A stretch of DNA of 32,271 bases from a filamentous cyanobacterium Phorm 6 (lineage in GTDB: Bacteria > Cyanobacteriota > Cyanobacteriia > Cyanobacteriales > Microcoleaceae), in assembly GCA_003003725.1 (NCBI GenBank), contig PVWI01000037.1, positions 1-32,271 on the forward strand, written 5' to 3'. The translations under genes were made by a program, and so were the position numbers. Of the stretch, positions 3 to 20,511 are shown piece by piece (the first letter of the stretch is position 1; every line of letters begins with the position of its first letter). The notes under the pieces are model-generated. The model ran no database searches. It had not been told where the DNA came from and saw only the letters and a program-made list of their open reading frames with translations.

Positions 3-1118
3 GAAAAACTGACAGTTTTAGGAGAAGGAGGATCTGCTAATACAGAATGGGAAAACGGACGCATAAAATTTGATACTGATTTTAACGTGCAAACTCTGAT
101 TGATAACAATCAAGGCTTGCAATTATTTGACACTAACGGCAATACGATATTTCAGCAAGGGAAGTTTGTGCTTGCCATACCATTGTCATTAAGCGATACA
201 GTACAATTACCAACGGCAAAAAATCGAATTCAAGGAATTACCTTGCCAATAAGTGAGAGGGAAGGTGGTAAAGTAATCGGCTATATAAGAGTAAGCCAAT
301 CCCTCGAAGAAATTGACGAAACCTTAAATAAATTAAATTTAGGGCTAGGGAGTGGAATTCTTATAGCCTTGATTTTTAGCGGTGTTGGTGGAGTCATATT
401 GACTCGTCTAGCGATGCAGCCAATTGAGGAAAATTTTCAAAGTTTAAAGCAGTTTACTGCTGATGCTTCTCACGAATTTCGCAGCCCCTTGATGGCGATC
501 AAAAGTAATCTAGCCGTAGCACTAAAATACCCAGATGGCATGAGAGAATCAGATGCCGAAAAGTTTCAGGCTATTGCTAGTGCTGCGAATCAAATGACGC
601 AGCTAACCGAAGATTTGCTGCTGTTAGCACGAACCGATAAAGTGGTCAGCATCAATAAAGCTCCTGTCAATTTAACTGTTGTTTTGGAGAACTTAGTTCA
701 GCTTTATCAGTCTCGCGCCGAACTCAAACAAATTAGTTTAAAACCTCAGCTAACAGAAAATATTAATTTAATAGGTGATTTAAACCAACTAACACGACTG
801 TTCACCAATTTGATTCAAAATGCACTTCACTACACGCCATCTGGAGGAACAGTTGAAATTACAGCCAACCGTCTCGGTTCCTATTGCATTGTCAGCGTGC
901 GAGATACGGGTGTGGGAATTGCACCCGAGCATATTAAGCTGATTTTTGAGCGGTTTTGGCGAGCAGATGAATCTCGTTCCTATTGGAGTGGAGGTTCTGG
1001 TTTGGGATTAGCAATAGCCCAAACCATTGCCCAAAATCACGACGGCTCAATTACCGTTACCAGTCAGCTAGGAGTTGGCAGTTGCTTCACTGTGAAATTG
1101 CCCTGTAACTCTTTTTAA
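3..1118 (+). CDS. Sensor histidine kinase, 5'-truncated by window edge (RppB/NrsS-like)
   Basis: The frame is open from base 3, so the true start lies outside the window; the GTG at 87 is internal. The visible part begins in an extracytoplasmic sensor segment and then has one membrane helix (about residues 86-108 counted from the GTG). A HisKA domain follows with the phospho-acceptor His in ASHEFRSP (codon at 471-473), then a HATPase_c domain with N box NLIQNALHY, G1 box DTGVGI and G2 box GGSGLGLAIA. It autophosphorylates and should pass phosphate to a response regulator, probably OmpR-type and encoded just upstream outside the window. The overall look matches cyanobacterial RppB/NrsS-type kinases; that subfamily name is my inference from pattern recall. 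The kinase function is certain, the signal is unknown. The neighbouring 39-bp boxes could be targets of its partner regulator. Confidence 0.9.
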   Translation, partial: EKLTVLGEGGSANTEWENGRIKFDTDFNVQTLIDNNQGLQLFDTNGNTIFQQGKFVLAIPLSLSDTVQLPTAKNRIQGITLPISEREGGKVIGYIRVSQSLEEIDETLNKLNLGLGSGILIALIFSGVGGVILTRLAMQPIEENFQSLKQFTADASHEFRSPLMAIKSNLAVALKYPDGMRESDAEKFQAIASAANQMTQLTEDLLLLARTDKVVSINKAPVNLTVVLENLVQLYQSRAELKQISLKPQLTENINLIGDLNQLTRLFTNLIQNALHYTPSGGTVEITANRLGSYCIVSVRDTGVGIAPEHIKLIFERFWRADESRSYWSGGSGLGLAIAQTIAQNHDGSITVTSQLGVGSCFTVKLPCNSF

Positions 1119-1225
1119 ATCATTTAATATAAATCGCTTTATTGATGTTTTTTAAAAACAACAAATTATTGAAAAATTATGATATAAACTATAAATAGCT
1201 TGAACTTTATTGAGTTGTATTGATT

Positions 1226-1909
1226 ATGCTAAAAAAAATTCATGAATTTTGGTTTCAGCATATAAATCCACGATTAAATACTTTAATTGTGACACTTGGT
1301 GTAGTTGGACTTACCAGTTGTCTGCTAATCAGTTTTATTTTAGCGTGGCTATTTGAAGAAATATTAGAACGAGAAGCTTTTGCTTTTGATACTTCTTTGC
1401 TGTACTGGCTGCACGGATATGCAAATCCGAGTCTAGATGCTGTGATGCTAACAATTACTCAGCTTGCTGATCCCCGTGTAGTTATAGTGATTGTGGCAGT
1501 CACGCTGGGAATTCTCTGGTGGAAGCATCACCGCGAGGAAGCTAATTTTTTTGCTGTTGCTTGTTTGGGAGCCTTCATTCTCAATACTGGATTAAAGTTA
1601 TTTTTTACTAAACCTCGTCCACATCTTTTTCCAAGTTTAATTGCAGAAACATCCTTTAGTTTTCCGAGCGGTCACGCTTTAGGAAGTTTTGTAATGTATG
1701 GGTTTCTATCTTACCTGCTTTCCGCTCACTTTCCGAAGTTTTCCAAATTAATATATACTTTAGCTGTTTTGACGATCGCTCTTATTGGCCTGAGTCGGAT
1801 GTATATAGGGGTACACTGGCCAACGGATATCATTGGTGGCTACGGAATCGGCTATCTTTGGCTGACGCTTTGCATCGCAATGCTGAGGTTACAAACCAGA
1901 CAAGTCTAG
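1226..1909 (+). CDS. PAP2-family membrane phosphatase
   Basis: A 227-aa integral membrane protein with about five or six hydrophobic helices. It carries the complete phosphatidic acid phosphatase type 2 signature: KLFFTKPRP (KX6RP), FPSGH, and SRMYIGVHWPTD (SRX5HX3D), with the His residues of the second and third motifs catalytic. Family members dephosphorylate phosphatidic acid, diacylglycerol pyrophosphate or undecaprenyl pyrophosphate at the membrane; the substrate here cannot be told. I chose the ATG at 1226; a TTG two codons earlier (1220) is also in frame. No clear Shine-Dalgarno sequence precedes it. It lies 107 bp downstream of the histidine kinase on the same strand, across an AT-rich gap, so it may or may not be cotranscribed. 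A strong hairpin follows it. Confidence 0.9.
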   Translation: MLKKIHEFWFQHINPRLNTLIVTLGVVGLTSCLLISFILAWLFEEILEREAFAFDTSLLYWLHGYANPSLDAVMLTITQLADPRVVIVIVAVTLGILWWKHHREEANFFAVACLGAFILNTGLKLFFTKPRPHLFPSLIAETSFSFPSGHALGSFVMYGFLSYLLSAHFPKFSKLIYTLAVLTIALIGLSRMYIGVHWPTDIIGGYGIGYLWLTLCIAMLRLQTRQV

Positions 1910-2080: not shown

Positions 2081-2836
2081 TTATTCATCGTTAGCAGCCA
2101 CAGTCCCCATGAGTTTTCTCTGATTGAAAGTTGTGAAGGCGATACAGACTAAAAGTATTGACAGCAGGACTATAGATGAGCCTACCGTACCAAAATTTAG
2201 ACCGCCTTTTTCTTGTGATTTGGTCATAACATCCCCAAGTGTGGCACCAAACGGTCGGGTGAGTACGAACGCAATCCAAAACAACAAGACTGGCGAAATT
2301 TGAGTATAATAATATGCTCCCAATACCAGCGCAAGCAAACTAGAAATTAGGAGCGCTCCTCCTGCAAATCCAAGTCCAGAAGTATCGGCGAGAAAATCGC
2401 CCACCGCAGTACCCAAAGTATTTGAAAATAGAATTGCAGTCCAATAAAGTATCTCAATTTTAGGCGTTTTGACGTTATTAACAGATAGAGACCCAACACT
2501 GAATCGCCAGAATGCCAAAGTAGCCAAGAGAAGAGTAAGTAAAATCGCAGACCCTGTAGCGTAGCCCAGCCCTAAAGTACGATCCATGTAATCTGAAATC
2601 GTTGTACCCGCTGTGCTGGTTGAAAGGATGACAGTCCAATAAAGCAATGGGTTATAGCTTTTCGATATCAATTGAGAGACAAGAGTAGCTAAAAAAATTC
2701 CAATCAATATCATCGAACTAACCGCATAGCCCACGTTTAACGTCATGGATAAAAGGTCTCCTGCCGTTTCCCCCAGAGTGGTTGCACATATCTTCATTAT
2801 CCAGAAAAAGGCAGTGATTTGTGGAAGTTTGCTCAT
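2081..2836 (-). CDS. DUF347-repeat membrane protein (COG4705-like), copy 1
   Basis: A polytopic membrane protein of about 251 aa made of four repeats of the DUF347 type, each roughly two helices. Each repeat opens with an aromatic/Trp pair and has a G-x(3-4)-D signature: FFWIMKICATTLGETAGD, LLYWTVILSTSTAGTTISD, ILYWTAILFSNTLGTAVGD and LLFWIAFVLTRPFGATLGD. DUF347 proteins are uncharacterised; transport or sensing is only a guess. The longest frame begins with a GTG at 2872, but that codon lies inside the conserved 39-bp box, so I chose the ATG at 2836. That start (MSKLPQITAFFW) also lines up with the paralogue next door (MLNRVPEVTGSFW). The box directly upstream suggests its own regulated promoter. 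The fourth repeat differs from the rest in carrying the basic TRPFG/TRPLG motif in both paralogues. Confidence 0.8.
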   Translation of the reverse strand: MSKLPQITAFFWIMKICATTLGETAGDLLSMTLNVGYAVSSMILIGIFLATLVSQLISKSYNPLLYWTVILSTSTAGTTISDYMDRTLGLGYATGSAILLTLLLATLAFWRFSVGSLSVNNVKTPKIEILYWTAILFSNTLGTAVGDFLADTSGLGFAGGALLISSLLALVLGAYYYTQISPVLLFWIAFVLTRPFGATLGDVMTKSQEKGGLNFGTVGSSIVLLSILLVCIAFTTFNQRKLMGTVAANDE

Positions 2837-2866
2837 TTTGGCGATCGGGTTATCGTACTTTAGCGG

Positions 2867-2905
2867 TTTCACTCTAGATGATAAATGTCAAGAACTTGGA
2901 AAGAT
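2867..2905 (-). promoter_or_regulatory. 39-bp regulatory box, copy A
   Basis: Read on the minus strand it begins ATCTTTCCAAGTTCTTGAC and ends TCTAGAGTGAAA. It matches three other boxes in this window at 30 of 39 columns without gaps. It holds two CTT-n-CA half-sites 11 bp apart and a TAGAGT (-10-like) element, 31 bp upstream of the chosen DUF347 start. Confidence 0.75.
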
Positions 2906-2915
2906 CGATCGCTAA

Positions 2916-3683
2916 TCAGTTTTGTTGGTCGATCGGCATTGGGGCTAGTTTCTTCTGCTTAAGGCTTAAGTAAATAACCAGACTCACGATTATACAAAGA
3001 AAAAGCATACTGGTTCCGATCGTACCAAAACCCAAACCACCATTTGTAGTAGGTTGTGACAATAAATCGCCAGTAGATGCCCCCAGTGGACGAGTCAAGA
3101 TGTAGGCCACCCAAAATGCCAAGACTGCATTCATTCTGAAGTAATAATAACCAGCAGCTACTATCGCAATTAAAACCGCAAATACTAATGCTGATTGTGC
3201 ATAACCCAGTTTCAAAGCCTCTGCTATAAAGTCTCCTGTTGCCGTACCAAAAGCAAACGTAAATAAGATAGCAGCCCAATAAAACAGCTCTCTCTTCGCT
3301 GTGTTGATGGAGTGCATAGCTAATGTTTTTTCGACCGCATACCACAGTCCAAAAACGGCACATAATATTGCACTAAAAACTATAATAGTTGTGGTCAAGC
3401 TAACTCCCAGCTCGTCTACCAATCTATCCGTAATTAGTGTGCCAGTGATGCTCATTAAAACGACGACAATCCAGTAACTAGCTGGCACATACCGTTTCAG
3501 CTTAAACTGATTCAAAAGCGCCATCAGTAACACAGCGCTCATCACATAGGATGTAACGCTTAAACCAAGGTTCAGGTTTACTGATAGATAATCAGCCATA
3601 GTTTCACCTACTGTGGTAGCCAAAACCTTAATAATCCAGAAGGAACCTGTAACCTCTGGAACCCTGTTTAGCATCTTATTCAT
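2916..3683 (-). CDS. DUF347-repeat membrane protein (COG4705-like), copy 2
   Basis: A 255-aa membrane protein, paralogue of the next gene downstream, with the same four repeats: FWIIKVLATTVGETMAD, SYWIVVVLMSITGTLITD, LFYWAAILFTFAFGTATGD and LAFWVAYILTRPLGASTGD. I start it at ATG 3683 (MNKMLNRVPEVTG), which aligns with copy 1; the longer frame to 3746 adds 21 residues with no family likeness and runs into a hairpin repeat. An AAGAAAG stretch upstream could be the ribosome site. No 39-bp box precedes it, so it is probably transcribed with the PepSY gene 119 bp upstream. Tandem copies with clear divergence suggest a hetero-oligomer or two related substrates (inference). Function unknown. Confidence 0.8.
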   Translation of the reverse strand: MNKMLNRVPEVTGSFWIIKVLATTVGETMADYLSVNLNLGLSVTSYVMSAVLLMALLNQFKLKRYVPASYWIVVVLMSITGTLITDRLVDELGVSLTTTIIVFSAILCAVFGLWYAVEKTLAMHSINTAKRELFYWAAILFTFAFGTATGDFIAEALKLGYAQSALVFAVLIAIVAAGYYYFRMNAVLAFWVAYILTRPLGASTGDLLSQPTTNGGLGFGTIGTSMLFLCIIVSLVIYLSLKQKKLAPMPIDQQN

Positions 3684-3735
3684 GATATTTTTCTTTCTTA
3701 ATTTTTCGATAGAAACAAGATGGGATCGCATCATA

Positions 3736-3762
3736 AGGGCGGGCATTCACAGACACCGCCCT
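3736..3762. repeat. AGGGCGG hairpin repeat
   Basis: Arms AGGGCGG and CCGCCCT enclose a 13-nt loop, in the gap between the PepSY gene and the DUF347 gene. It could attenuate transcription between the two or be a small dispersed repeat. Confidence 0.5.
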
Positions 3763-3802
3763 ACTCTATTTGTTGCCTCAAGAAAGCGAATTTGTTCGGA
3801 AT

Positions 3803-4303
3803 TTACTTCGTCTTGGTATCATCATTCGTTTCCCCATCGCCATCGCCGCCAGCCGCCTCGGAAATTTGAACGCTGCTGCGGGGAGAAACGCTTTCCTTAC
3901 CCTCAGCTTTTAGGCTTTGCGTTTGGAGGATTTTACCGTTACCCGCATCTACACTTATTTCCTGTTGACCGATCGCAACTGAGTACACAAGATTGCCGTC
4001 TTCGTTTTCTAATTTGACACTATTTGCTGTGCCGCCTTTAGCAGCTTCCGCTGCGGATCGCGCCTGTTCGGGCGTAATTTTAGCTAGAGATTGCAGGCGA
4101 CTTGATTCTTGCTTTTCTTCGGCATCATCGTTAGTTTCGCCGTCGCCATCACTGGCTTCAGGTGCTGCTTTGCTGCTGGTGCGATCGGGCATGACGGCAA
4201 CCTGAGATTGTGTTGGCGAAGCGTACACAGTTCGGACTAATGCACTCAGCCCTAAAGTACCGACTAAAGCTGTCACTAGAGCGATTTTTGTTGAGGTTTT
4301 CAT
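3803..4303 (-). CDS. Secreted PepSY-domain protein with two DGDGETNDD motifs
   Basis: A 166-aa protein with an N-terminal signal peptide (Lys residues, hydrophobic core about 7-23, likely cleavage near Ala28-Ser29). A PepSY-like domain (about residues 72-130) follows, recognisable from ITPEQARSAAEAA, then a strand pair and VDAGNGKIL. The acidic nonapeptide DGDGETNDD occurs twice, at 52-60 just after the signal peptide and at 154-162 close to the C terminus, flanking the PepSY domain. PepSY domains are extracytoplasmic modules often linked to protease inhibition or metal and redox functions. The acidic repeats resemble metal-chelating loops, but this is inference. The same DGETND core appears in the small peptide gene upstream. 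Preceded by the 39-bp box and probably leading an operon with the DUF347 gene. Confidence 0.85.
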   Translation of the reverse strand: MKTSTKIALVTALVGTLGLSALVRTVYASPTQSQVAVMPDRTSSKAAPEASDGDGETNDDAEEKQESSRLQSLAKITPEQARSAAEAAKGGTANSVKLENEDGNLVYSVAIGQQEISVDAGNGKILQTQSLKAEGKESVSPRSSVQISEAAGGDGDGETNDDTKTK

Positions 4304-4334
4304 GGTGCGAAACTTCTTTAATCTAGGCTTACAG

Positions 4335-4373
4335 TTTCACTGTAGATAACAAAAGTCAAGAACTTAGCAAGAT
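4335..4373 (-). promoter_or_regulatory. 39-bp regulatory box, copy B
   Basis: On the minus strand it begins ATCTTGCTAAGTTCTTGAC and ends TCTACAGTGAAA, 31 bp upstream of the PepSY start, the same distance as copy A from its gene. It is the most divergent of the four copies, with TTGACT for TTGACA and TACAGT for TAGAGT. Confidence 0.75.
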
Positions 4374-4499
4374 TTTCAAAAATTTGGATAGTGTTATTTT
4401 GTTTATGTATATAAAAATGCAGCTTGAGAAGCAGTACCTGACTAAATCTCTGGCATAATTATTGTGTAACAGCCATCCTGCCTGTTCATGACTATCTTT

Positions 4500-4754
4500 T
4501 TAGGAGAAGTCTATTTCGCACTCAAGCAAATCGTTCCACATGATGCCGTCTAATTTATTACTAAATGGCGGAACGACATCCTTTGCCTGCTTGCCAGCAA
4601 TAGTATCTTGGCTGGCACTACCGCAACCAAGCGAGTCATTAGTCTCGCCGTCACTTTGATTGTCGAATGTGCCCGCACTACCGCAACCAAGCGAGTCATT
4701 AGTCTCGCCGTCACTTTGATTGTCAATTACAGAGATTTTATTGGCGATTTGCAT
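4500..4754 (-). CDS. Small acidic repeat peptide with DGETND and GCGS motifs
   Basis: An 84-aa protein. I chose ATG 4754 because AAGGA sits 8 nt upstream; the longer TTG start (4760) is less likely. After a short N-terminal segment it has two 20-residue repeats containing DNQSDGETNDSLGCGSA (residues 11-27 and 31-47), encoded by a perfect 50-bp DNA repeat. A non-repeated C-terminal part with WNDLLECEIDFS follows. There are three Cys (24, 44, 79) and no signal peptide or membrane helix. I do not recognise a family. The layout resembles multi-core peptide precursors, but no modification enzyme or exporter is nearby. A metal-binding or regulatory peptide is equally possible. It has its own 39-bp box and shares the DGETND motif with the secreted PepSY protein. 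Confidence 0.7.
   Translation of the reverse strand: MQIANKISVIDNQSDGETNDSLGCGSAGTFDNQSDGETNDSLGCGSASQDTIAGKQAKDVVPPFSNKLDGIMWNDLLECEIDFS
4615..4724. repeat. Perfect 50-bp direct repeat within the small peptide gene
   Basis: The stretches 4615-4664 and 4675-4724 are identical, giving a 60-bp period (20 codons) inside the reading frame. The 10-bp spacer differs from the sequence after the second copy. Perfect identity suggests a recent duplication. Confidence 0.95.
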
Positions 4755-4783
4755 TGTCAAATCCTTTCCATGTAGGTTTGCGC

Positions 4784-4822
4784 TTTCACTCTAGAGCACA
4801 AATGTCAAGAACTTGGAAAGAT
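4784..4822 (-). promoter_or_regulatory. 39-bp regulatory box, copy C
   Basis: On the minus strand it begins ATCTTTCCAAGTTCTTGAC and ends TCTAGAGTGAAA, 29 bp upstream of the small peptide's ATG. It lies in the 137-bp gap between the peptide gene and the histidine kinase. Confidence 0.8.
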
Positions 4823-4891
4823 TCAGCGAAACCTAAAAAAATTGGTAAAATTATGGCTTGCTGCTGCTTTTCATCGTGTATATGTCTAATT

Positions 4892-6787
4892 TTAAGACTG
4901 TTTAATTGGCAGTGTTATGCAAAACTCCGTTCCCTCTCCCAGTTCGGAAACAACTTCTAGATTACCCTTGTGCTTTTCGATCAACTGATAACAAACAGTT
5001 AGTCCTAAACCTGTTCCTTTGCCTACATCTTTCGTCGTGAAAAAAGGATCGAATATTTTAGATTTTAATTCTGGCGGTATCCCAGTACCGTTATCTCGAA
5101 TTCCGATTCTAACCAGCTCGGTATCTATTGTTTCCGTATGAATCCAGATAGTAGGTCTCTCAGTCGCATTGCTTGAGGCTTTACTGTTAACTTTTCGTTC
5201 CTCAACGGCCCAGATTGCATTGTCGATTATATTCATAAATACCTGATTCAAAAGCGCTGCATAGCACTTGACTTTGGGTAAATCTCCATAGTCTTTAATT
5301 ACTTCAATCTTTGATTCCAAGCGCTGATTGATAATTGCCAACGTACTGTCAATACCTTCGTGAATATTGGCAAATTTCAGCGACGATTCATCCAATCTAG
5401 AGAAGTTACGCAGAGACTGAACAATTTGTCTAATTCTGTCAGCGCCATTTTTCATGGAATGTATAAGTTTAGAAAAATCCTCAGCCATAAAATCCAGATC
5501 GATTGCCTCAGTTTCAGCTTGAATCGCACCGTTGGGATTAGGGTACTGCTTCTGGTACAATTTCACTAATCGGAGTAAGTCTTGAGAGTAGTTACTAGCG
5601 TGTTCTAGGTTGCTGTAAATAAAACTGACCGGATTGTTGATTTCGTGAGCGATACCTGCTACCATTTGACCCAAGCTCGACATTTTCTCGGCTTGAATGA
5701 GCTGGGCTTGAGTCTGCTGAAGATTGTGCAAGGCATCTGCAAGTTGATTGTAAGCTGACTGCAACTCGTGATTTTTTTGTGAAAGTTCTTCAGTCCGTTC
5801 TTCCACGCGCTTTTCTAAGTTTTGCTGCGAAATTTCTAATGCTTCAATATGCTCTTTTACAGATTGAATGAGACTGTTGAAAGAAATCGTTAATCCTCCT
5901 ACTTCATCGCCAGTAGTAACCGCAGCTTGGAGATTAAAATTGGATTCCTTAGTTGCTTGTTCAGCGACTTGAGTCAATGCTTCTATAGGTTGAGAAATCA
6001 TCCGACTGATGTATAATGCAAAAATAGCAGCGCCGATTGCTGAAAGTAAAAGACTGGCGATGCTGATTTGGACACCAATTTTCCGCGCGCTTTCTAGCTG
6101 GAATTTTGCTTGTTCTTGTCCTAGATAAGCAAGTTTAACAAATTTGGTTAAATCTTCTGAAAGTTCGTTAAACTGGATCGCCTCCCGGCTTTTGGTAAAA
6201 TCCCACAGTGACTGCTGTGCAGCTATACCTGTTTTTTCTCCCAAGCGTTTAGGATCAATTTGTTGCAAAGTCCGCTGGATTTTTTGAATGTAAGCTATTT
6301 GAGTAGAGTCATACTTACGTAAAAATTGATTCAACTGTACTATGTCTGTGTCGGCTTGGTTGAAACTGCTATTACCTAAAATTATTAACGAAGATAAAAG
6401 ATGACGAGATTTTTTTAATGCAGTAAAAAATTCACCTTTTTCGTCTACAAATTCTTGAGTATCTCCAGTCACAAAAATAAGTTTATTTTGGTTTGATTGA
6501 GTTTCCATCACAGCAATTTTCATTCCGCTTAAAATCTGGGCCTTTTCTTGTTCGAGACCGAGTTTATGCAAAGCTTTTTTGGTGTAGAAGTTTCCAACTA
6601 GCTGTCCGCAAGTCGTTCCCAAAACAGCAAGACTGAGTATCAATGCATAACCCAAGCTAATTTTTAACCGAATCGGGGCGCGGCGAAGCAGTTGTTGCAA
6701 CCAATTGGGAGCAAATTTGAAATCCGTTGATGTTTTTATATGGGATGGCATTTGGACTACAGCTTGCTTATGGTTTTGTGAGTGCAT
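4892..6787 (-). CDS. Membrane-bound HAMP histidine kinase
   Basis: A 631-aa kinase. Transmembrane helices at about 42-62 and 238-260 enclose a roughly 175-residue extracytoplasmic, mostly helical sensor region of the four-helix-bundle type. A HAMP linker (about 261-315) and a coiled coil (about 316-365) follow. The HisKA domain has the phospho-acceptor His381 in GIAHEINNP, and HATPase_c has NIIDNAIWAV, DNGTGIP, FDPFFTTK and GKGTGLGL. The catalytic half is close to those of the LOV kinase and the truncated kinase downstream, marking a shared HK subfamily. No response regulator adjoins it on this strand. It is itself preceded by the 39-bp box, 73 bp upstream of the ATG, so it may be produced as part of the regulon headed by the window's first kinase. 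The signal is unknown. Confidence 0.9.
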   Translation of the reverse strand: MHSQNHKQAVVQMPSHIKTSTDFKFAPNWLQQLLRRAPIRLKISLGYALILSLAVLGTTCGQLVGNFYTKKALHKLGLEQEKAQILSGMKIAVMETQSNQNKLIFVTGDTQEFVDEKGEFFTALKKSRHLLSSLIILGNSSFNQADTDIVQLNQFLRKYDSTQIAYIQKIQRTLQQIDPKRLGEKTGIAAQQSLWDFTKSREAIQFNELSEDLTKFVKLAYLGQEQAKFQLESARKIGVQISIASLLLSAIGAAIFALYISRMISQPIEALTQVAEQATKESNFNLQAAVTTGDEVGGLTISFNSLIQSVKEHIEALEISQQNLEKRVEERTEELSQKNHELQSAYNQLADALHNLQQTQAQLIQAEKMSSLGQMVAGIAHEINNPVSFIYSNLEHASNYSQDLLRLVKLYQKQYPNPNGAIQAETEAIDLDFMAEDFSKLIHSMKNGADRIRQIVQSLRNFSRLDESSLKFANIHEGIDSTLAIINQRLESKIEVIKDYGDLPKVKCYAALLNQVFMNIIDNAIWAVEERKVNSKASSNATERPTIWIHTETIDTELVRIGIRDNGTGIPPELKSKIFDPFFTTKDVGKGTGLGLTVCYQLIEKHKGNLEVVSELGEGTEFCITLPIKQS

Positions 6788-6860
6788 GGGAATAATATTA
6801 AGGTTGACATCTATTTTTCTGAAATTTTAACCATGAACTTTCTTTAATGTCAGTTTGACA

Positions 6861-6899
6861 CTTCACTCTACAGGACAAATGTCAAGAACTTGGCAAGAT
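6861..6899 (-). promoter_or_regulatory. 39-bp regulatory box, copy D
   Basis: On the minus strand it begins ATCTTGCCAAGTTCTTGAC and ends TGTAGAGTGAAG. This copy shows the direct repeat most clearly: CTTGCCA and CTTGACA 11 bp apart. It lies upstream of the HAMP histidine kinase. Confidence 0.78.
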
Positions 6900-7272
6900 T
6901 ATCTGTCTGAAAGTTAAGAGATTTCATCCTGATTTCATTTTTGGGTGTCAACCTAGGTTAAGTGGCGATTTAACATGGATGAGGTGCTGTCGCGGTGAGG
7001 AGTGCGATCGCACTTAAGATAGCAAGTATCAAGCGTGCAAGTTTTCGCAGCCACAGACCAAAATACCATCAACCGTGAAAATATCTCTCGATTAATAGTC
7101 GTCTCTGCTCATACCCGAGGGCGATATGTTTGTTTTTTAATTACTGATATTCGCCCAGCATTATTGCAACTTTTATGCTCGCTAATTTCTGAATAAGTTT
7201 TGATAAATTTCCTTGACTCCCTGTCTCAAAGTGCCATAATTTACCAATCATTGTCCGCCAAGAGTAAATCAA
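6900..7272. other. Intergenic region between divergent kinase and lipoprotein genes
   Basis: About 370 bp without a convincing gene. It holds an ATTTCAT tandem pair at 6921-6938 (listed separately) and a HIP1-containing palindrome, AGTGCGATCGCACT, near 7002-7015. I see no further structure. Confidence 0.6.
6921..6938 (+). promoter_or_regulatory. ATTTCAT pair with 11-bp period
   Basis: ATTTCAT occurs at 6921-6927 and 6932-6938, spaced 11 bp like OmpR/PhoB-type half-sites. A second pair lies upstream of the DUF2808 gene. It is over 330 bp from the lipoprotein start, so the target gene is uncertain. Confidence 0.35.
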
Positions 7273-18362: not shown

Positions 18363-18478
18363 TAGAACAATCTTCAGGGAGTGCGTCAGAGTCGGAAAAT
18401 TTACCTTATAATACTATAGCAGCATCTACTCAACACCCAGTTTCTCAATTAATTCATTCCACTTTATCTTGTGAATAG
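18359..18478 (+). pseudogene. Truncated second copy of B (B')
   Basis: A 39-codon frame begins by ATGA overlap with A', exactly as B does with A. Its first 20 or so residues (MIEQSSGSASESENLPYNTI) parallel the N terminus of B (SS, S-E, L, N-T-I pattern). Homology stops near 18419, seven bases before the restriction gene's stop codon at 18426, and the frame then runs antisense into that gene. This is best read as B' cut by arrival of the restriction-modification pair. Confidence 0.55.
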
Positions 18479-19529
18479 GCTGCAATTCTGTATCAATACT
18501 GACCAGATTAGAGTAATTATTCACAAAAATTTCTAAGGAAATCAATCTTAAGTAATATTGAATCGTAGGAATTACTCCATTAATTATTATTTGACAGCCA
18601 TGCTCTTCTCTAACTTGAGATATTATGTTATTTATTTCCTGAACTTCAGAAATTTTAATATTCTTACACGAAAGTATATAGTATCTTTTGGGATTAAACC
18701 TGATAATTTTTTCATAAGCTATTCGCACAATTGTTAAGTCAATTTCCCGATCAAGCTTTACTTCAATAGCTTCACTGATTTGCCCTTGTTCGTCAAATAC
18801 TTCTATGTCGCCTGAACTTCTTGAAGTCAAGTCAGATGCTGTGTGACTGCCTAAAGGTGCTAAAGTACACTTTTCATATCTTTTCACTTCATCCAAGAGA
18901 GACTTGTACGTTGCATAGATAGCCAGAACCGGCAACTTTGAGCCACCGCGAACTTGATATTTAGTAGAAAAATGCTCCTCCAGACAAGAAACTATACTCA
19001 GTATGTTCAGAGTGTCAGGATTAACTAATTTGGCTACGTTTACAATATTTTTAGCTTTTACTTCAATAACTTTATTCAATATCAACCGCAGCACATTATC
19101 TGCCTGTTCAGGTCTGCTTTGAACATAATCAATTATATTTAAAAATGCTTCTTTTACTTGCTGGTTCCTGATTTTACCCTTGTAATCTAAATTGTACGGG
19201 TACGGTTGTTCTAAAGACCTGGTGAGCCAACCGCTTTCAGCCATAGATGGAAGTCCCAGTTCTTTTAAAGTAGGTGTAATATATAAAGTGTCAATATTTC
19301 TTCCCGAAAAACCACCCGGTATACTACTCTGATGTTTTCTGATGTCCTGTTCAGGGGATAAAGACTTGTAAGTTAGAAGAGTGACCAAGACGGTGTAGAC
19401 TGCCTTCTGTTGGTATGCTTGTTCACCAATCAGTAAAATATATTTAAGGCATTGTTGAGGAATATCCTTGATATCAGCAATTGAAAAGGACAAGCTGTAT
19501 ATATTCTTCAGTTTTTGTTTGTGGTTCAT
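18426..19529 (-). CDS. Type II restriction endonuclease (PD-(D/E)XK candidate)
   Basis: A 367-aa protein from ATG 19529 (a GTG at 19538 adds three residues). Its start overlaps the end of the methyltransferase gene by 56 bp. The C-terminal half has a plausible nuclease core: GDIEVF followed 15 residues later by E-V-K (EAIEVKLD), the D...ExK pattern, then a helix. The N-terminal half has SSIPGGFSGRNIDT and MAESGWLTRSLEQPYPY, which recall restriction enzymes of the SacI-type group, a weak impression only. The context with a cytosine-5 methyltransferase makes the role as partner endonuclease strong. The target sequence is unknown. The gene is AT-rich and lacks the HIP1 sites common in its neighbours, suggesting transfer. 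Confidence 0.78.
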   Translation of the reverse strand: MNHKQKLKNIYSLSFSIADIKDIPQQCLKYILLIGEQAYQQKAVYTVLVTLLTYKSLSPEQDIRKHQSSIPGGFSGRNIDTLYITPTLKELGLPSMAESGWLTRSLEQPYPYNLDYKGKIRNQQVKEAFLNIIDYVQSRPEQADNVLRLILNKVIEVKAKNIVNVAKLVNPDTLNILSIVSCLEEHFSTKYQVRGGSKLPVLAIYATYKSLLDEVKRYEKCTLAPLGSHTASDLTSRSSGDIEVFDEQGQISEAIEVKLDREIDLTIVRIAYEKIIRFNPKRYYILSCKNIKISEVQEINNIISQVREEHGCQIIINGVIPTIQYYLRLISLEIFVNNYSNLVSIDTELQPIHKIKWNELIEKLGVE

Positions 19530-20511
19530 TTGTTTCACTTGACAATAAATTTTGACTTAATATTTCTTTCGCGATCGCCTCCACCACGGGCACGCAAACC
19601 GAATTCCCAATTTGCTTGTAACTTTCCCCCGCACTCGGATAACTCTTAAAATCTTCAGGAAAACCCATAAGGCGGTAACATTCCTTCAGCGTCAACTTTC
19701 GCACCATATCTTGCTCAGGAAAATAGATAAAAAACCTACCCGATGTTTCTTGCGAAGGAATAGTCGGATGCACGCCATCCACCGAATAAATGCGATTAGG
19801 CTGTCTGTGCACCCTCGACAAATGTTCTGTATTCGGCCTCACCCCAGTTTTCCAAGTACCTTTATTTCTGTATCCTACAAACAAAAGTCCCGAATCTTGC
19901 TTTCTCGGAGACTCAATTAAAGTATACTCTGATTTGTCCAATATTTCAAAATCCCCTGTCTCGTCTAGAAATTCCCTGAGTTTGGGAGGAAACTTGCTTT
20001 TTAGGAATGAAAAATTGAAGGGTTTACCTTTAGTTGCAATAATAAATATTCTTTCGCGGTGTTGAGGAAGTCCAAAGTCTTTAGCATTCAGCATTTTGTA
20101 ATTCACGCTATAGCCCAAATCTTCAAGGCTGGCGATAATTACTTTTAAGGTATTTCCCTTGTCGTGATGGATTAAGTGCTTGACATTTTCCAGGACAACT
20201 ACTTGAGGTTGTTTTACTTTAATGATTTTACAAATCTCAAAAAATAGCGTGCCTCTAGTATCTTCAAAGCCGAGCTTTTTGCCGCAGATACTAAAAGGTT
20301 GGCACGGAAAACCGGCGACTAAAACATCAAAATCTACTAATTCGGCAGGATTAATGTTACTGATGTCTGCAAAAGGCACTTCGCCGAAATTGTCTGTGTA
20401 AACTTCTCGGCATTTACTATTGATTTCGCAGGAAAAAACGCATTCAAAGCCCTGTTTCTCAAAACCTTGTCTGAAACCTCCTATTCCCGAAAACAAATCT
20501 ATAAATTTCAT
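19474..20511 (-). CDS. DNA (cytosine-5) methyltransferase of a type II RM system
   Basis: A 345-aa enzyme that transfers methyl from S-adenosylmethionine to C5 of cytosine in a specific sequence. Ordered motifs: I DLFSGIGGFRQGF (SAM), IV GFPCQPFS with catalytic Cys70, VI LENVKHL, VIII QHRERIFI, and X at the C terminus (YKQIGNSVCVPVVEAIAKEI). The target recognition region between VIII and IX contains RVHRQPNRIYSVDGVHPTIPSQETSGRFF. It protects the host DNA from the adjoining endonuclease, which overlaps its 3' end. The upstream methyltransferase order is the usual safe arrangement. One HIP1 site occurs near 19570. Its specificity cannot be read by eye. Confidence 0.93.
   Translation of the reverse strand: MKFIDLFSGIGGFRQGFEKQGFECVFSCEINSKCREVYTDNFGEVPFADISNINPAELVDFDVLVAGFPCQPFSICGKKLGFEDTRGTLFFEICKIIKVKQPQVVVLENVKHLIHHDKGNTLKVIIASLEDLGYSVNYKMLNAKDFGLPQHRERIFIIATKGKPFNFSFLKSKFPPKLREFLDETGDFEILDKSEYTLIESPRKQDSGLLFVGYRNKGTWKTGVRPNTEHLSRVHRQPNRIYSVDGVHPTIPSQETSGRFFIYFPEQDMVRKLTLKECYRLMGFPEDFKSYPSAGESYKQIGNSVCVPVVEAIAKEILSQNLLSSETNEPQTKTEEYIQLVLFNC

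Follow-up and report, generated by a model that had tools for sequence, protein, structure and literature searches.

In class II activation by PmrA/BasR and PhoB, the regulator sits on a pair of half-sites roughly one helical turn apart, which replace the -35 element. According to the available part of PMC4182526, CopR of Synechocystis is a copper-responsive two-component regulator with the site TTCATN4-5TTCAT, and NrsRS governs the nickel-resistance operon nrsBACD. The accessible sections of PMC8963506 describe UzcRS of Caulobacter as a metal-responsive two-component system with the site CATTAC-N6-TTAA, acting chiefly as an activator of secreted and membrane proteins, and give UipA as a precedent for metal binding by PepSY. 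The mmf cassette of Tn6048 (Cupriavidus metallidurans, plasmid pHB44) combines genes for a PepSY protein, an undecaprenyl-type phosphatase, two DUF347 proteins, a response regulator (RR) and a kinase (PMC4914505, PMC12029693, as far as the available text of each goes), and Pb and Zn are reported to upregulate it in C. metallidurans (PMC12029693, same extent). Here we describe a 39-bp box present four times in a stretch of 32,271 nucleotides from the filamentous cyanobacterium Phorm 6 (PVWI01000037.1; this stretch, the whole of contig C339, is called the window). We consider it highly probable that each box is the operator plus activator-dependent promoter of the adjacent OmpR/PhoB-family RR; boxes and RR together are very likely a case of known OmpR/PhoB-type regulation, unusually clear and spread across the cyanobacterial class.

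The boxes lie at 2867..2905, 4335..4373, 4784..4822 and 6861..6899, all on the minus strand, and precede, in this order, the genes of a DUF347 protein (DUF347a), a PepSY-domain protein, a small repeat peptide and a HAMP-domain histidine kinase. Their alignment is gap-free with 30 of 39 columns invariant, exactly as an earlier sequence-only reading had stated, and any two of them share 32-36 of 39 positions; flank identity is 7-13 of 40 upstream and 13-21 of 40 downstream. That reading had also described TTGACA followed after 9 nucleotides by TAGAGT, an arrangement we recovered as TTGACA, 9 nucleotides and TASAGT, with TTGACT in the PepSY box. The -10-like elements are TAGAGT at 2871-2876, TACAGT at 4339-4344, TAGAGT at 4788-4793 and TAGAGT at 6865-6870 for boxes 1 to 4, and the half-sites of box 1 lie at about 2886-2893 and 2897-2904. 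The distance to the start codon is 30 bp for the DUF347a ATG, 31 bp for PepSY and 73 bp for the HAMP kinase, while the box of the repeat peptide lies 23 bp from its TTG start and 29 bp from an in-frame ATG; of the claimed range of 29-73 bp, the upper end and the four named genes therefore stand, and the lower end becomes 23 bp, 29 bp applying only to the ATG. The boxes score 52.7-56.4 with the matrix that was trained on them, and the next-best match in the window scores 10.4. In the complete own genome (6,644,697 bases), no site other than these four boxes, all of them before genes, matches a 30-base pattern with at most 3 mismatches, and the reversed control finds none.

The partner of the kinase that ends at 1118 had been expected just outside the window, and an OmpR-type RR is encoded there, on contig C473 (6268 bases) of the same genome at 5308-5982, just before the N-terminus of that kinase. 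C473 ends with 31 residues matching the N-terminus of the kinase of a related genome (G026) and the window opens at EKLTVLGEGG, so that, judged against G026, about ten kinase codons are missing between the two contigs; the C-terminal part of the sensor kinase occupies 87..1118 on the plus strand. Ahead of the RR, C473 also encodes an RND adaptor (634 amino acids) and a CusA/CzcA-family RND pump (1045 amino acids; 825.5 bits against a cut-off of 701.45). Receiver and winged-helix domains (PF00072, Response_reg; PF00486, Trans_reg_C) were found in the RR of locus L058, which is 96% identical to the own RR, and BasR (8jo2, 4s04) and RpaA (9dvt) were found as sequence relatives. Boxes precede the RR genes themselves at four loci of other species (L146, L151, L172 and L191), which, together with a plasmid site described below, fits autoregulation in those species.

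Compared with the described systems, the half-site layout is like that of PmrA/BasR and of PhoB class II activation, a likeness drawn here from sequence alone, and the half-site sequence differs. The best NCBIfam matches are RppA for the own RR (236.1 bits, cut-off 250) and RppB for the kinase of L058 (275.8, cut-off 400), both below the curated cut-offs, so that neither counts as an equivalog. We take RppA/RppB to be NrsR/NrsS, for which, unlike the regulon proposed here, the available part of PMC4182526 names no DUF347 or PepSY targets. CopR has the repeated half-site in common, but TCTTnnC at 11 bp is not the CopR site given in that part of the source. UzcRS would be similar in being metal-responsive and in its envelope-type targets, and differs in site sequence and in phylum, as far as the accessible sections describe it. 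The mmf cassette shares the pair of DUF347 proteins: mmfC1 is 55% identical to the second DUF347 protein of the window (DUF347b) and mmfC2 51% identical to DUF347a, while the PepSY protein resembles mmfA (31%) and the phosphatase of the window mmfB (26%) only weakly. Its RR belongs to a different lineage, mmfR (34% identical) and mmfS (29%) are not orthologous, the scanned pHB44 stretch holds no box (maximum score -8.8), and the genes listed for mmf in the available text include no RND pump, unlike the CusA/CzcA-type pump beside the RR here. Our literature search, with limited coverage of subscription journals, found no title or abstract opening that describes the box.

Box and RR co-occur among the 59 genomes of the family, which were scanned with a 36-base pattern allowing up to 3 mismatches. 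Boxes were found in 10 of them (27 copies, including the 4 of the window; reversed controls gave 0 in all 59), and an RR of at least 86% identity is present in exactly these 10 genomes; the next-best RR, at 73%, belongs to a genome without a box (G006), and the other listed matches reach at most 62%. Each boxed genome carries one to four strict copies in one cluster, and in the nine besides our own most boxes stand in front of the genes for DUF347a, the PepSY protein, the repeat peptide or the HAMP kinase, within a conserved cluster. RR and boxes stand on separate contigs in G030, and in G045 the kinase match is shortened and the box before its HAMP kinase has decayed (score 25.0). G026 retains the RR and boxes, yet has no DUF347a match at 1e-10, whereas G027 and G037 have DUF347a (78% and 76%) without an RR ortholog (best 57-58%) and without a box in 12 kb; this dissociation indicates that there the box follows the RR and not DUF347.

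For the class-wide analysis, 54 loci besides our own were chosen from 388 class genomes solely by RR similarity (E ≤1e-85), and the controls were 22 stretches (439,802 bases), namely 20 taken arbitrarily from such genomes plus two loci with RRs of 56-58%; loci L194-L197 belong to neither set. With the matrix built from the four window boxes alone, 38 of the 54 RR loci were matched at a threshold of 18 (72 hits in 834,106 bases) against none of the 22 controls, and 40 against one at a threshold of 16. The top score of this matrix among 40 simulated windows (about 1.3 Mb) was 18.2; with one of 40 at that level, under one chance match is expected in 834 kb. A broad matrix at threshold 18 matched 40 of the 54 loci (73 boxes) and no control; because it was partly trained on contigs from some of the tested genomes, the window-only matrix is the independent one. 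The share of matched loci declines little with RR identity: 16 of 21 at 70-80%, 14 of 20 at 66-69% and 8 of 13 at 62-65%. The 36-base pattern is stricter: allowing at most 3 mismatches, it matched 5 of the 388 class genomes, our own included. More widely, the genome_contigs collection, described as covering 84,980 species, was scanned with the exact core pattern. Of the 29 stretches returned, 28 bear cyanobacterial titles and the other is labelled as a Tatlockia metagenome-assembled genome, whose RR (72%) and DUF347b (77%) match the cyanobacterial cluster. After setting aside the 8 already studied, an RR of at least 66% was found within the 5-8 kb examined in 13 of 21 stretches.

A downstream gene could be matched for 38 of the 73 boxes in RR loci. 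With the four of the window, these 42 boxes precede PepSY (19), DUF347a (7), DUF347b (7), RR (4), kinase (2), repeat peptide (1), HAMP kinase (1) and PAP2 (1) genes, so most of the recognised genes behind boxes are homologues of those in the window, a result that the sequence-only reading had named as support for its proposal. The median distance from box to start codon is 31.5 bp, and it is 20-60 bp in 27 of the 42. From the unmatched downstream proteins 22 were picked and 20 taken through Pfam, where 9 had no match at 0.001 and the others included HtrA-like trypsin/PDZ proteins (2), RTX repeats (3), a metallophosphoesterase, Sbt_1, a polyketide-cyclase family protein and a leucine carboxyl methyltransferase.

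The anatomy of the box was described from 83 boxes (71 once near-copies were removed) in the window, the 54 RR loci and three plasmid stretches; because the broad matrix was used to collect them, column counts lean towards that matrix. The class-wide box consists of two TCTTnnC half-sites 11 bp apart, then TAnnnT at a mostly fixed distance, in keeping with the spacing that had been proposed from the four copies. Among the 71 non-redundant boxes, the TCTT of the first half-site is conserved in 67, 71, 71 and 71, the TCTTGAC of the second in 69, 67, 70, 70, 60, 69 and 61, and the -10 block TAnnnT in 66 (T), 71 (A) and 71 (last T). Column similarity peaks at offset 11 (3.27, against at most 1.62 at the other offsets in 5-24), a value reached by 70 of 20,000 column permutations, and the gap between the 22-nucleotide half-site pair and the 11-nucleotide -10 block is 5 in 65 of 79 pairs. 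The tandem half-sites thus have the spacing (about 10-11 bp) of an OmpR/PhoB-type class II regulon, and the layout, with the site over the -35 region at a fixed -10 distance, is class II-like by sequence only, the boxes having been collected with a matrix that has this spacing built in.

Eleven cyanobacterial plasmids carry RR relatives of 74-81% identity, and three were scanned. Those of Nostoc and Anabaena have boxes before DUF347 (then RR and kinase) and before PepSY. Anabaena cylindrica PCC 7122 and Chroococcidiopsis thermalis PCC 7203 each have both RR and boxes on a named plasmid. On pCHRO.01 of the latter, the pattern is matched at 14 places (up to 3 mismatches; control 0), one of which (2 mismatches, without the TA) precedes genes for an aquaporin, a Mn catalase, VIT1/CCC1, the RR and the kinase in a row. 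The proposed regulon is thus compact in the own genome, with its four boxes, but perhaps not everywhere. In the Nostoc plasmid pANSO36B (L202, 13635-16726), TniQ and TnsA-type genes adjoin the DUF347/RR/PepSY group, which hints at mobility.

Several results weigh against assigning the boxes to this RR. At a threshold of 12 the window-only matrix matched 46 of 54 RR loci and also 6 of 22 controls, and 16 of the 54 loci (14 with the broad matrix) had no match at 18, some of them on short contigs. In the examined stretches of the window's genus, no box scoring at least 14 precedes the pump-RR operon, save a weak match (15.9) before the L058 RR. When 29 DUF347 loci in 28 genomes were considered (our own excluded; a box being a score of at least 16, with the same loci under both matrices), 18 of 21 were boxed where the genome had the RR and 4 of 8 where it did not (Fisher p 0.07). 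Two of these four exceptions come from incomplete genomes (G350, 72%; G327, 78%). The other two are G183 (99% complete), with four boxes at its DUF347 locus (C2:62029-62751 and flanks, L249) and, among the 150 candidates scored out of 156, no RR above 55% identity; and G436 (95% complete, 6% contamination), with one box (L258) and no RR above 52%. Moreover, RR and boxes are physically linked, so that joint inheritance accounts for part of their co-occurrence, and the loci lack phylogenetic independence.

The boxes of G183 and G436 suggest that another RR may share the site, and the box could even belong to a different OmpR-family regulator, with the adjacent RR linked by chance or sharing the site. 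A candidate is at hand in the own genome, where contig C50 (L104, 4738-5191 and 5214-7254; the observation also concerns locus L193) carries a paralogous RR (60-61%), a kinase and, about 1.8 kb from this RR, a related variant box before a 128-amino-acid GESGE-rich protein; the cluster of the paralogue in G011 has two variant sites, one of them before an RTX-repeat protein. We nevertheless regard this explanation as unlikely, given that a paralogue of 61-62% is present in seven family genomes without strict boxes (G011, G033, G040, G043, G051, G054 and G055), while strict boxes coincide with the close RR in 10 of 10.

The TTGAC-like and -10-like blocks at mostly fixed spacing could also be read as the promoter of an alternative sigma factor that needs no activator. 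This is very improbable: the sequence-only reading had judged TTGACA and TAGAGT too close for a normal -35/-10 pair, and a promoter scan of 2700-7100 indeed lists no 16-18-spaced site using any TASAGT element; besides, conservation extends to the repeated upstream half-site, and the boxes track the OmpR-type RR. The downstream flanks show some similarity, which would suit dispersed repeat copies or recent duplications with no regulatory role, but upstream flanks are dissimilar, start codons in other species lie mostly 20-60 bp downstream and boxed family genomes hold few strict copies, all in one cluster, which makes this hardly conceivable. A dispersed repeat, the outcome that the sequence-only reading had named as fatal to its proposal, is ruled out by there being only four copies in the own genome, in one cluster.

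The genes behind the boxes are all on the minus strand. DUF347a (2081..2836, 251 amino acids from the ATG; PF03988) is a predicted eight-helix membrane protein; its predicted structure (mean predicted local distance difference test score 85.8) has 8 helices and conserved acidic residues, and structure comparison gave no clear solved relative. The longest listed open reading frame (ORF) begins at 2872, inside box 1, and the true start is likely the ATG at 2836, where relatives align. DUF347b (2916..3746) lies downstream of the PepSY gene, without a box of its own in the window. The PepSY-domain protein (3803..4303) has two DGDGETNDD motifs, and the repeat peptide (4500..4760, TTG start, in-frame ATG at 4754) two SDGETNDS motifs and no Pfam match at 0.01. 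Of the 77 proteins encoded downstream of boxes, 14 have the motif D.E.[NQ]D, as in DGDGETNDD, against 1 of 669 mechanically listed control ORFs; its carriers (window 3803-4303 and 4500-4760; L142, L152, L159 and others) are mostly PepSY relatives and thus not independent. At L054, L056, L058 and L060, the PepSY box falls within the 3' end of the repeat-peptide ORF. The HAMP kinase (4892..6787) is a second kinase under a box, with no RR among the neighbouring ORFs, and feed-forward is possible. On the plus strand, a PAP2-family phosphatase (PF01569) occupies 1220..1909. Farther along, 18426-20511 holds a DNA methyltransferase-like ORF, whose motif we take to be of the C5-cytosine type, adjoining a possible restriction partner.

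Returning to the boxes as operators of the adjacent RR, we infer from their layout how the system would work. The phosphorylated RR, whose kinase is split over C473 and C339, would bind as a dimer to the tandem TCTTnnC and TCTTGAC, 11 bp apart. The half-site pair would occupy the place of the -35 element and help RNA polymerase to melt the -10 element TAnnnT, which begins 16 bp past the C of the second CTTGAC, and transcription would start about 7 nucleotides beyond the -10 element, giving leaders of roughly 20-70 nucleotides. The regulon would work at the envelope, through DUF347 membrane proteins, acidic PepSY and repeat peptides and the second kinase. A CusA/CzcA-type pump encoded beside the RR and a gene set like that of mmf suggest a heavy metal or envelope stress as the signal; the regulon would be a small one, centred on the membrane protein family DUF347 and probably linked to metal or envelope stress.

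A bolder and rather doubtful extension would be a class-wide, partly plasmid-borne stress regulon, in which the RR lineage and its box make up a portable module and keep recruiting envelope genes, the exported PepSY and repeat peptides, with their DGDGETNDD-like acidic motif, act as a periplasmic metal buffer beside a DUF347 protein of unmatched fold, and a paralogous RR of the same genome reads a variant box. At the strength given above, the boxes would provide a concrete operator for a cyanobacterial two-component system, with a matrix that can predict its regulon in other cyanobacterial genomes, and would tie a defined regulator to the DUF347 family, which is uncharacterised and familiar from a metal-response cassette in other bacteria.

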